Origin: Skeletonema tropicum | Taxonomy: Eukaryota; Bacillariophyta; Thalassiosirophyceae; Thalassiosirales; Thalassiosiraceae | DNA length: 64,000 nt | Assembly (NCBI GenBank): GCA_037178625.1 | Contig: JAWZXG010000028.1 | Coordinates: 124,001 to 188,000 of the forward strand | Direction of reading: 5' to 3' | Shown: positions 10,498 to 16,070 of the stretch, in pieces | Layout of the letters: each line of letters starts with the position of its first letter | Numbering within the stretch: position 1 is the stretch's first letter | The notes under the pieces: generated by a model | Database searches by the model: none | The model's input: the letters and a program-made list of their open reading frames with translations, nothing else | What the model was told of the DNA's origin: nothing | Position numbers and translations under genes: made by a program

Positions 10498-10506
10498 GAT
10501 TTGTGG
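10498..10506. repeat. 9-bp target-site duplication, left
   Basis: GATTTGTGG, identical to 16062-16070 on the other side of the transposon and in the same orientation. Confidence 0.88.
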
Positions 10507-10598
10507 GGGAGGGGCTACGTTGGGCACGGCTTTTCTGGGCACGGGTTGGGCACGCCCTATGATGTGACGATTCTGCCACGTCACCATACCACGCTCTC
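10507..10598 (+). repeat. Left terminal inverted repeat of the MULE
   Basis: 92 bp, exact reverse complement of 15970-16061. It starts GGGAGGGGCTACG and contains three GGGCACG words within about 40 bp, candidate transposase-binding sites. The homology ends at 10599, where the two sides diverge. Confidence 0.9.
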
Positions 10599-10842
10599 CC
10601 ACCACCCCTTCTTTCCACCACAAGCCCCGCACACAGTCAAAGTTAGATACCCCAGTAACTACATCATAAGCCATAAAGTCACCGCGGCAACACCAACTAG
10701 CATAAATCATAGTCACTACAGCAAAACACTACCGCTCATTCCACTTTCGTCGTCAGATTTTTTCGTATTCTTGCCGCTGCTTCAATAATTGGTCATCTAC
10801 GACCTATCGAATTTACACACAACATACCTTACAAACAAATCA

Positions 10843-12123
10843 ATGTTGGTCGATTATTATGACCTACATCGATTCGAGTTGTTCCAGCAGAAGGTTCGCC
10901 GATACGGTGGCGAAGCAGCCGTCCGTCATGACTATAATATTTACAACAGAAAATACACTCCTCCACAATTGAAGGATCAAATGAAAAGCGGCAACTATTT
11001 ACATAATCAGAACCTGAAATGGTGGCGGACAATAAACAAGAACAAACCTTCACCAAAAAAAATATCATTTTTGTCATCATCATTGCAATATGACTCCAAA
11101 AGAGACAACAAACGGAAGGCGATGGAACTTGACAATTCAACTGTTTCATTTCAGTTCAACAAAGTCACAGCAAAGAAGAAACGTAAAGCGGGGAAACACA
11201 AAGCACAACTCACCGCCAAACATTTAACTAACTCTCCTGCACCCCTCATTACACCACAATATGGGGACTTTGTTGAGGTTGAATTCTCCTCCAATTCAAG
11301 CGTTTATGTTCTTTATGCTCGCGCAGATAGCGAATGCCCCCTGCTTCGTGACATACATGAATGCTGCTATAAAGGAGCCGGAAATACTCTTGACAATTCT
11401 CTTGATGCTTTGCCCAAAAGAGCTTGGGAACAAGACAACCATGCTGGTGGGGGATATGCAGCATTTGGGATTGGATCCATGGATAAAAGACAAACTGGGC
11501 CCTTCTTTCTTATGAATCATCAATATGAAAAGGCAAAAGCTATTACTTCCTCTCTCTCTTCCATCTTTGGTAGAGTTGCGGCAGCCTTGCTGAACTACAC
11601 ACCTAATGTATTTAGGGAGAATGAAAAAATTAAGAGCATAAATGCAAACTTCTCTTTCCCACCAATTGGTTGCCAAGGTGCAGTTGGCTGGATGGCAAAT
11701 CAAGTTGCGATTCGCCGCATAGGCAAGGGATGCCAGAAGAATGCAATGATAGAAGACAGTGTTGTGGCATTGCACGCTGACACCGGGGATTTGAGTACAA
11801 TGCACCCGCTTGTATACATACCGCGCGGTGGTCCAGATGGAAGAGGTGGAATTATAGCAGATTCCCACTTGGTCATTGCGGAAAGCGAGACTGGTGGCAA
11901 ATACATTCAAATCGAGACAAATGTGAGAGATACTGTCTGTATAGTGGTCTTCAATAGCGCACTGAATTTGCATGGGTTGGTCCAATCATCCCCTGAAGGT
12001 GAAACTGAAGATGCCTGGAGCACGAGGCTCATTCCATTCATTACAAAGCAAATGTATAACTTCATGTTAAAGAACAAATCTGCAGCGCCAATTGATAAGT
12101 TTAATGTTCTAAGAGTAAAGTAA
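10843..12123 (+). CDS. 2-oxoglutarate/Fe(II) dioxygenase-like protein (possibly TET/JBP-like) carried by the MULE
   Basis: Starting at the first ATG (10843), the frame encodes 426 aa without introns. The N-terminal 130 residues are basic (KKKRKAGKHKAQ). The C-terminal part shows the double-stranded beta-helix dioxygenase signature: LHADTGD gives the HxD metal pair (H311, D313), SALNLHG the distal histidine (H377), and STRLIPF an arginine 18 residues later (R395) suited to bind 2-oxoglutarate. Between them GRGGIIADSHLVIAE resembles the GG-x-L strand of TET/JBP-type enzymes, which oxidise 5-methylpyrimidines in DNA. In fungi such enzymes are known as passengers of another transposon class (KDZ). 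I infer a nucleic-acid-modifying role in the nucleus; another dioxygenase subfamily remains possible. The gene converges on the transposase gene, with 272 bp between their stops. Confidence 0.6.
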   Translation: MLVDYYDLHRFELFQQKVRRYGGEAAVRHDYNIYNRKYTPPQLKDQMKSGNYLHNQNLKWWRTINKNKPSPKKISFLSSSLQYDSKRDNKRKAMELDNSTVSFQFNKVTAKKKRKAGKHKAQLTAKHLTNSPAPLITPQYGDFVEVEFSSNSSVYVLYARADSECPLLRDIHECCYKGAGNTLDNSLDALPKRAWEQDNHAGGGYAAFGIGSMDKRQTGPFFLMNHQYEKAKAITSSLSSIFGRVAAALLNYTPNVFRENEKIKSINANFSFPPIGCQGAVGWMANQVAIRRIGKGCQKNAMIEDSVVALHADTGDLSTMHPLVYIPRGGPDGRGGIIADSHLVIAESETGGKYIQIETNVRDTVCIVVFNSALNLHGLVQSSPEGETEDAWSTRLIPFITKQMYNFMLKNKSAAPIDKFNVLRVK

Positions 12124-12395
12124 AACACATCTTTTCCTACGCATATTTGCTCAAACATTGGTACCATACTGCCTCTGTAATGTGTGGAGAGAATTTTTTC
12201 TCTGAGAATGATCTATTCTATGTCATCTTCATTCCCAGGAATCACTGATTTTGATAGGGGATAAGCACCTATTGATTACCCCACCAATCACCCAACCAGT
12301 GAATTAGCAACTTTTGTTGCATAAAATGAAATAGTAAAGAAGAATGCTTGTGCTCAAGCCACAAAATTAAATCAGTTGTCTTTATCTTTACAGAA
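12124..12395. other. Spacer between convergent genes of the MULE
   Basis: A 272-bp gap between the two stop codons, AT-rich and without a coding frame; presumably holds both 3' ends and polyadenylation signals. Confidence 0.6.
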
Positions 12396-15300
12396 TCATT
12401 TTCCATGAAGAAACACGTAATGGCTATTACTTTGTCCTTCTCTTGCCCATAGTGCAACTGTATTATGATCGAAATACATGGGTTGACAATCTTTCATGGC
12501 CAATCCCCTTAGAATGATATTCGCCTTGTATACCACACTGTTCAAAACAAACACCTTTCCAACAACTTGAATCCCAATCGCATCCTTTGCAACACAAGGA
12601 TCAACATCAGCTGTTGATTTTGTTTCGTCCAAAACCGAAACAGTCTCAATCAATCCCCAAGTTGATTTCACTAATCTTTTCCCAATCTGCTTTGCAGCTG
12701 CGCAATTTGCCTTGTTGTGTCCAATACCCTTACAAAGATCACAAGTTGAAATGTGACGTTTTGCCGTAACCACTGCTTCCACTCCGCTTATCTTTCTTTT
12801 CATGCAAGTTCCACCTTCGCCCCGTTTCCTTGTAGAAGGAAGGATGCCTTGAGGGTTGTTGATGTTATTCTTACCATCCGCAACTGTAAGATCAAGGTAC
12901 GACGCAGCTGCTCCTTTTAATTCTTCTTCCCCGACATTTTGAATATTAGCAATCATGTAATTCACAACTGGCAAAAGCTTCTGGTATGTTTCGTTGCTGC
13001 GCGATGCAGTACTGGCAAGCTGTTTGAATTTGTCCAACAGAATATTGTGCATTTGAGTCGAATTCAAACGTTTCGCTTTCTTTGCTGTATAACGTTTTGC
13101 AATCAATGGGTTGGCAACAAGATCTGACACAAATTCCCCTACACCTTCACCGCCAGCAACTTGTACATTATCTGTTGCATTAGTATGCAGCTCAACTGCA
13201 CCAACGACTCCCTTCTCATCTGGCAGATCAAAATCGGCACCCCCAAAATCTGCTGCAGGAGTGTCATCAATGGAAGAACCACCATTTCTTTGTGGTGCTG
13301 GAGAAATTGCAGGGATTGACTTCACTTCGGTATCATTAAGTTTCCAATGATTGTGAAACTGTGACTCATTGAATTCAAAATCGCATACTCGTTGGATGTG
13401 CTTGCATGGCTGTCCACTGTTGATGTCCCTTTTGCACCACATGCAGTAATACACACCGTCTCTGAATTCTACAACCCTCCTTGGTTGTGTCACTCTATCT
13501 GGACCTTTTAAATAAACCAAATATGCCTTAGTCACACCTCTTGCCTGTTGCTCAGCAGACAGTACTGCCATTTCCTCATATGAGTACTCTTGAGCTTCTA
13601 GGTTTGTCTTGATGAAGTTATCCACAACTTTGACAGAACATTTCATCGAACATTCTTGAGCCGCTTTTGTTCGCATGCCTTGGACATCATCATCGTAGAC
13701 TGCAACTCGTGCTTTGACTCTTTGCTTTCGTTCCTCAGAAGTCTTATCCTCATCTTTCTGAAGGTGTTGCTGGACGACACCAGTAAAAGAATGAACTTGT
13801 CCTCCAAGATGACGTTGGAACGCTGAGAATGATCCCTCGACAACGGAACTTGCCTCCATATCCAGTGTGAAATTCTCAATTCTCCAAGGATTCCCCCACC
13901 GCTCTTTATAAAGGGAAAGTTGCTGAAGATATTCTGCAGCCCCTGGCCATTTGCGGCATGCTTCATTCAAGCGAACATCCCATTCCTGTTTACATGTGGT
14001 GTTCTTCACCAGATGTTGATACACAAAGGACTTGCAATCCGCATAGCCTGGGATGTGTTTCAAATTACGAGGGAAATCTAGTCTCATAATATGCCATGTA
14101 CAGGCACCAAAGAATGTGACAGAAGGGAGAAATCGTTGTATAGGCTCCACACCAACTCCTACAAAAACAACAAAGAATTCGGTCGTAAGCAGCTCCTTGC
14201 ATGATGTTGAGATGCACACATGAACAATGGTGTTGTATACTTACCCAAATCTGACATGGTGGCTTTCACAATTTCAGCAGCAAAGGGTGACATAGTAACA
14301 AGGCTTTGCAGCACCCACGATACAGCTTCATTGCTAGCACACATAGTCATTGCTCCCATTACAGTTTGAGATTTGCCTTCATGATCTGAAACCATAACAT
14401 TCCAAAAGCAAAAGTTGCTTGTATTGACACCACTCCTTGTGTCATCAATGAATATCATAGCACCATGTCTGAGAAGTCTTGCCCTCATCCTACCAGTCTG
14501 CCATGCAGTTCCACTGAATCTGTGTTCTGAATCAGTTGTAACTCGACTGTCATATCCATCTACTTCTTCCTTTAAACCTCTATGCAACATTAGCAGGTTA
14601 TCAATGCTGTCTTTACTCCCGGCAGAAATCTCATTTGCTAAGTCTTCGTTATGAAGATAGTCAGTCCATTGACCTATCTCCTCCTTAGAGCACTCATTTG
14701 GTTTCCAATTTTTTATGGGCTCATCATTTAGAAGTCTGTAACGCAAATTGGTAGCCTCTTCCAGTGTTGCATCCAGAAATCCTGATTGAATCAACCAACT
14801 TTTGACATCATCAGTGCCATATCTACGCGCTTTCACTTCTTTACGTAGGTGCGCTAAAGCATAGTCAGGATATGTTCTCCCTGCTCTCTTCCGTAATGCG
14901 AAAATCATCTCCTGGTCATCTCCACCATTACAACCGTTTGTATGCTCTAGAGAGACAGATGTTATACGGACAATTTCATCATTACGGCATGCGTCATTAG
15001 GCATTCTTTCACGTGCAGCACTGATGTGCCACTCACAGCCAGTCTTCAGAGACTGACGAGTTGGCCGGGCACCCTTGATCCCTTCTTTCTTTTGTGACTT
15101 GTGGGTTCCTGATCTAGGACAGGTGTATCGATAGCTAATGTAATTATCTGCTTGCGTTCTTTTGTTTTCTGTCTTTTTTTGTTTAGGAAACATCCGCACA
15201 GTCACGCAATAATCTTCCACTGCTTGTTTGAAGAGTTGTTCCGATGGAAACACATCGTTGTTGTTAAAAGGTGCAGTGGCAGTGGAGGTATTAGTGGATG

Positions 15301-15799
15301 TATTGGTGGCCAAATCTAATTCTGCCTCTTCAGTTGGTGAAGTTGTTGTGGTTGTGTTGGTGGGCATATCAATGGTGCCAGTCAGACCGTTTTGCATCGT
15401 CATATCAAGAGGTTCGCTTGGGTTTTGTTGAGGAATTAGATGTTGCTGTTGCTGTTGGTTTTGAAAAAGCGATGCTTGATTGAGAAAAGGTGCAGGTGGT
15501 CGAAAATTGATGGGAAAAAGATGCTGAAGCTGATGATGATTATAACTTGGCCACTGATTGTTGGAAGATGGCAGAGGAGGAAACAAAGTGGCGAAGTTGC
15601 TGTTGTAATGTGGCATTACGCTATGAGCAGCGCCTGTGTCATGCGGATGTTGCATGTTTGTGGAGGTGGAGGTTGACAAACACGCACCAGAGGAAGAAGC
15701 AGGACCAGGATTACCAGGATTCATTAGTAGATTGGTGCTTGGTGACGACCTCCTGCCACTGTTATCGTTGTTAATATCCTGAGAATGTGCGGATTGCAT
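12396..15799 (-). CDS. MULE-family DDE transposase with SWIM and CCHC zinc fingers
   Basis: Exon 1 15799-14245, intron 14244-14159 (86 bp, GT-AG), exon 2 14158-12396; 1105 aa. The Q/N/P-rich N-terminal 190 residues are followed by a WRKY/FAR1-like region with CPRSGTHKS and CEWHISA. The catalytic core reads FIDDTRSG (D452/D453), TMSDLGVG (D517, at the intron junction), FFGACTWH (C538, H541, the MULE C..H pair) and ASSVVEGSF (E626). A SWIM-type finger follows (C757, C760, C770, H772; QPCKHI). A zinc knuckle C-x2-C-x4-H-x4-C (991-1004) lies near the C-terminus. The order DDE core then SWIM finger is characteristic of MULE transposases. The start is the only ATG preceding the conserved region. 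No frameshift or stop interrupts it, so the protein may be active. Confidence 0.85.
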
Positions 15800-15867
15800 G
15801 ATGTATTAATGACACTGGTAACACTTAGCTTACTTTATTTTTGTCATTGGCCGCGCTGCAGCAACAT

Positions 15868-15869
<2 letters not shown>

Positions 15870-15918
<49 letters not shown>

Positions 15919-15924
15919 AGAGAG
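15870..15924. repeat. GA dinucleotide microsatellite
   Basis: About 50 bp of nearly pure GA/CT repeat in the 5' region of the transposase gene, between its start codon and the right terminal repeat. Such CT-rich 5' leaders can act as promoter elements, but nothing here proves that. Confidence 0.9.
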
Positions 15925-15969
15925 CGCGCCTCTTGTTGAAAGATAATTCTGCCTTTTAGGGTTAATGGA

Positions 15970-16061
15970 GAGAGCGTGGTATGGTGACGTGGCAGAATCG
16001 TCACATCATAGGGCGTGCCCAACCCGTGCCCAGAAAAGCCGTGCCCAACGTAGCCCCTCCC
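15970..16061 (-). repeat. Right terminal inverted repeat of the MULE
   Basis: Exact reverse complement of 10507-10598; ends at 16061 and is followed directly by the target duplication GATTTGTGG. Confidence 0.9.
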
Positions 16062-16070
16062 GATTTGTGG
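16062..16070. repeat. 9-bp target-site duplication, right
   Basis: GATTTGTGG, matching 10498-10506 exactly. Confidence 0.88.

Follow-up and report, generated by a model that had tools for sequence, protein, structure and literature searches.

Genes of the TET/JBP type have been reported within 11 lineages of DNA transposons, all of them fungal (Kojima, 2025, PMC12730594); in the portions of that text available, MuDR occurs twice, in connection with VANDAL and with SET genes, and the words "MULE" and "diatom" occur nowhere. Among Mutator-like elements (MULEs), the VANDAL elements of Arabidopsis encode VANC, which the accessible text describes as a sequence-specific DNA-binding anti-silencing protein that causes loss of methylation from transposable elements (TEs) (PMC5735166). 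A survey of 50 MULE groups includes a diatom group, group 37 or "MULE-Diatoms", which by its description there has terminal inverted repeats (TIRs) of 123–124 bp, a SWIM motif and one open reading frame (ORF) with no other, the target-site duplication (TSD) being unstated; the word "oxygenase" is absent from the main text (PMC6446971). Here we describe a mobile element of 5555 bp at positions 10507–16061 of a 64,000-nt stretch (hereafter the window) of Skeletonema tropicum contig JAWZXG010000028.1 (GCA_037178625.1, positions 124,001–188,000, forward strand). On balance, we lean towards reading it as an autonomous, recently amplified diatom MULE with its own TET/JBP-type 2-oxoglutarate (2OG)-Fe(II) DNA-base dioxygenase, which would counter silencing by methylation.

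End-to-end comparison showed that the element terminates in inverted repeats of 92 nt that are 100% complementary (left, 10507–10598, plus strand; right, 15970–16061, minus strand), and repeat detection placed the 9-bp target duplication GATTTGTGG on both borders, at 10498–10506 and 16062–16070. The identical ends and perfect duplication listed in a first-pass annotation of this DNA were therefore confirmed in the sequence. Like the fungal TET/JBP transposons, the element combines TIRs and a TSD with a putative dioxygenase gene beside the transposase and a proposed escape from methylation silencing; unlike them, as far as their published description was available (PMC12730594), it is a MULE, its host is a diatom and its protein is not recognized by the Pfam Tet_JBP profile. 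It resembles group 37 in being a diatom MULE with a SWIM motif, and differs from the description of that group in its 92-bp TIRs, 9-bp TSD, additional CCHC knuckle and second gene. Fungal KDZ transposons had been named as the precedent for TET/JBP passengers; that precedent exists but is wider than KDZ, extending over the 11 lineages given in the available text (PMC12730594). Among the literature matches listed, from a search that left subscription papers mostly outside, none describes a MULE or a diatom transposon with a dioxygenase of the TET/JBP or any other 2OG type. According to the annotation, the pairing of a MULE with a TET/JBP gene in an alga would be a different association from the fungal cases. 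Systems of this kind have been described before; what appears novel is the combination of superfamily, host lineage and TET-like branch.

The passenger ORF (10843–12123, plus strand) is uninterrupted over 426 codons and is assigned to a predicted TET/JBP-like 2OG-Fe(II) dioxygenase from the reading frame, its conservation, structure models and fold matches. The residues proposed earlier as catalytic, an HxD motif (H311, codon 11773–11775; D313, 11779–11781), a distal H377 (11971–11973) and R395 (12025–12027), are present at the positions claimed and invariant in 8/8 aligned rows, and H311-x-D313 is the sole HxD/E of the protein. Homologues of 410–435 amino acids (aa), with identity down to 44%, retain the catalytic residues. 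The predicted structure is a double-stranded beta-helix, as is the model of a homologue, and the strand positions of the HxD...H triad and distal Arg in the model are consistent with a TET/JBP site. For both models the top solved-structure matches were the TET/JBP enzymes TET2, CMD1, NgTET1 and CcTet; this family ranked before other 2OG families at ranks 1–13 for the passenger model and 1–14 for the homologue model, with NgTET1 and CcTet level with FTO in the former. The TET/JBP-like beta-helix context first suggested from the letters was thus borne out by prediction, and was repeated on a homologue. These closest solved folds are nevertheless distant, with identities of 8–15% across the aligned parts and no similarity at the profile level. 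The N-terminus (residues 1–66, window 10843–11040) was predicted as four helices in both models, outside most fold matches, and invariance was seen at only four positions among the first 67; such helices might bind DNA or protein.

Two sets of results qualify this picture. Profile scans of the passenger with Pfam, NCBIfam and PHROGs gave no recognition, Pfam Tet_JBP included, and a Tet_JBP (PF12851) scan of the whole genome gave no match, its control having matched only once and under the cut-off; PF20515 was silent in every genome scanned, so its silence here carries no information. The missing Tet_JBP match is not decisive, because divergent fungal TET/JBP types were, in the available text, likewise identified by structure-based comparison (Kojima, 2025, PMC12730594). 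The second set concerns relatives in the genome searched (a 78.4-Mb assembly of 125 contigs). A sister TIR variant reading GGCC was found at nine sites in seven places, five of which (C7, C10, C13, C14 and C18) carry a transposase of 71–90% identity, and the genome search placed the passenger at 0/7 of them. At the C18 sister locus, of which 801 bases were read (L064, C18:896300–897100), the passenger side is missing, since the locus closes at its far end with a second, inverted version of the end next to the transposase. This inverted end is 80.7% identical to the transposase-side end in the window, and about 200 bp of other sequence precedes the 3' end of the transposase gene. No passenger was detected in the genome search near more distant transposases (33–66%) either. 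The association is therefore constant within the TIR family and not universal among its relatives in the genome. Other searches for the passenger gave little: a second protein search using the passenger alignment returned no further relatives, 17 pattern matches among viral contigs included no relative, and the best row of a PDB sequence search with the alignment, a PPR protein (E 0.014), was set aside as chance, no stretch passing alone.

The transposase is encoded on the minus strand (15799–12396). The two long ORFs of this strand were at first candidates for separate transposase genes, which we rejected; they are exons of a single gene (exon 1, 14245–15799; exon 2, 12396–14158) joined by a predicted GT-AG intron of 86 bp (14159–14244), giving 1105 aa after splicing. 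The two intact genes annotated earlier are both present, with the correction that the transposase is one intron-bearing gene. In a Pfam scan, exon 1 matched PF21056, the RNase-H-like domain of ZSWIM1-3 (1.5e-6; 28.6 bits against a cut-off of 27.2), and the spliced protein barely exceeded the same cut-off at 27.7 bits; a FAR1 match in exon 1 was weak and under the Pfam cut-off, and the Pfam MULE model itself was absent from the profile matches. Exon 2, as seen in the splice prediction and alignment, contains two zinc motifs, one that we take to be of the SWIM type (at about 13398–13445) and one that we take to be a CCHC knuckle (at about 12702–12743), with ligands identical in 8/8 aligned rows, an alignment from which the homologue P0017 (40%) was omitted. 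Identification of the protein as a MULE transposase holds, narrowly by MULE/FAR1/ZSWIM-type homology and also by the TIRs and 9-bp duplication. Among viral contigs, 319 pattern matches to the transposase included no relative. The listed contigs with transposase homologues differ in length from those with passenger homologues, a comparison that speaks neither for nor against linkage of the two genes elsewhere.

The first 34 bases of the TIR occurred at 77 genomic sites (≤3 mismatches) compared with none for a reversed-pattern control, far more than chance would give; nine of the 77 belong to the sister variant. The passenger gave 38 genomic matches, 31 of them spanning residues 1–426, in 36 elements (two were matched twice), and 36/36 gene-bearing places lie inside elements with the same TIR. 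Copies of the TIR family hence consistently carry the passenger, and a host gene adjoining a transposon was rejected as an explanation, each passenger place found being within an element of the family. Neither outcome that the annotation had named as refuting, a predicted structure lacking the beta-helix or copies of the TIR family consistently lacking the gene, was observed. Of the 36 elements, 34 were read at base level: the copy in the window plus 33 loci. For a nested pair, the outer element was checked at its ends only; C5 and C95 were placed by coordinates only, C5 with one end listed. The 426-aa frame is intact in 28/34 elements and the 1105-aa transposase in 20/34, and L045 is a solo end. 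Full ends on both sides were seen in 18 elements, 17 of which have an abutting repeat of at least 9 bp. In 35 loci, 31 single-base variants relative to the window copy were found (21 nonsynonymous and two synonymous in coding sequence), from which we conclude that the amplification burst is very young and that preservation does not extend to each single copy. Recent activity of the element is suggested by the near identity of its copies and by their target duplications.

Several individual copies have features of their own. L034 (C6:1186601–1192355) is a 5555-bp element identical to that of the window but for the missing target duplication, a state that recombination or rearrangement could have left. 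At C19:1705296–1716412 (L032, L042 and L043), a full element with its own duplication, ACAAAAACA, is nested in the transposase intron of another copy; the outer element is also flanked by a target duplication. The ends are altered in the other 16/34 elements. Fifteen of the 34 (L044 and L046–L059) have at least one end without the outermost GGGA, starting at the second GGGG of GGGAGGGG, with the ends of L047 and L046 slightly different from the rest; seven of these 15 keep a repeat of 8–12 bp, often with 1–9 additional bases at the opposite end, a pattern resembling cleavage in a second register, 4 bp closer to the interior. A (GA)n run close to the right end (window 15873–15913) is the site of many length differences between full-length copies, for example in L035, as seen from one copy and from alignment lengths.

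That the host is an alga, as the annotation supposed, is indicated by silicon transporter matches in the genome (E down to 2.7e-245), a family that is presumably typical of diatoms. The cytosine methyltransferase profile PF00145 gave 12 matches above the cut-off at eight genomic places. The CpG observed/expected ratio of the element (0.585) is lower than in all 95 overlapping stretches of the remaining window (0.72–0.99); its GpC is normal, its CpA is higher than in all 95 stretches and its TpG is high, within their range. The depletion of CpG is possibly a trace of past CpG methylation. In Phaeodactylum, the available text (PMC9998398) associates loss of DNMT5a with methylation loss and with the overexpression of young TEs.

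Beyond the predicted fold, every step of the mechanism is what we infer. The transposase would excise and insert the element, the anatomy of which is observed. In the passenger, Fe(II) would be held by H311, D313 and H377 and 2OG by R395, as judged from the model and the conservation. The enzyme would most likely oxidize a methylated base on the element's own DNA, with 5-methylcytosine (5mC) as the first candidate, and copies would thereby be freed from silencing by host cytosine methylation and transposase expression maintained. Such a role would parallel that of VANC in Arabidopsis VANDAL MULEs and the presumed role of TET in fungal DNA transposons; by analogy with VANDAL/VANC as described in the accessible text (PMC5735166), this would be a MULE with a second protein opposing its own silencing, although VANC is a DNA-binding protein and the passenger a predicted oxygenase.

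A more specific form of this reading, to which we give somewhat less credence, is that the passenger represents an undescribed branch of the TET/JBP fold that falls beyond the reach of the sequence profiles scanned, captured by a MULE in diatoms independently of fungi, that serves as an enzymatic anti-silencing factor, perhaps on a base other than 5mC, and is kept by copies without a transposase. A TET-like enzyme need not target 5mC in vivo, because no 5-hydroxymethylcytosine was detected in Naegleria in the available account (PMC12344493). The derivative L060 (2001 bp) consists of positions 1–1882, including the whole passenger, plus 119 bp of the other end, and is flanked by a perfect 9-bp duplication; such transposase-less copies would retain the passenger since it would act on the DNA that carries it. 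Internal deletions (n = 15) touched the passenger in three cases where 6.7 were expected at random (P 0.026), a weak result that assumes uniform placement, uses break points read from alignments and leaves out three damaging events of another kind (a 2-bp loss in L035, an in-gene duplication in L046, and L045 as a solo end), the inclusion of which would weaken it. A variant with one deletion per copy (P 0.0085) was not relied on, since choosing the largest discards one gene hit. The deletion counts are suggestive at most.

Other explanations were weighed. An enzyme of the TET/JBP fold might hypermodify rather than erase, oxidizing or conjugating a base in order to mark or protect the element DNA or a transposition intermediate, on the model of CMD1 (vitamin C) or JBP (thymine); we regard this as unlikely, since no gene for a glycosyltransferase or similar partner lies between the element ends. 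Somewhat less likely again is an AlkB/FTO-like demethylase of N-methylated bases (N6-methyladenine or N1-methyladenine) in DNA or RNA, acting in element repair or transcript stability. It is improbable that the gene was captured without use to the element and spread passively in the recent burst. The sister subfamily without any copy found, the excess of nonsynonymous over synonymous variants, by which single copies drift, and the 6/34 examined elements in which the intact passenger frame is missing would fit this account; it is opposed by the genome search, which found no passenger outside elements, by the retention of catalytic residues in homologues with identity down to 44%, by the deletion counts, weak as they are, and by L060, in which the whole gene outlasted the transposase. 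A 2OG oxygenase with a protein substrate (a histone or the transposase) instead of DNA is equally improbable, the top-ranked solved neighbors of the models being nucleic-acid enzymes.

If the anti-silencing reading is true, the range of transposon-borne TET/JBP genes, so far fungal, would come to include a diatom and, among transposons, the MULE superfamily, which would suggest that uptake of a base dioxygenase is a recurrent route for DNA transposons past methylation. On the more specific reading, a stramenopile would have a DNA-base oxidation system, possibly targeting a base other than 5mC. The near-identical, often intact-looking copies, in the kind of host that restrains young TEs by methylation, make the question of self-erasure of methylation directly testable, and the passenger could prove to be a previously undescribed base-modifying enzyme.
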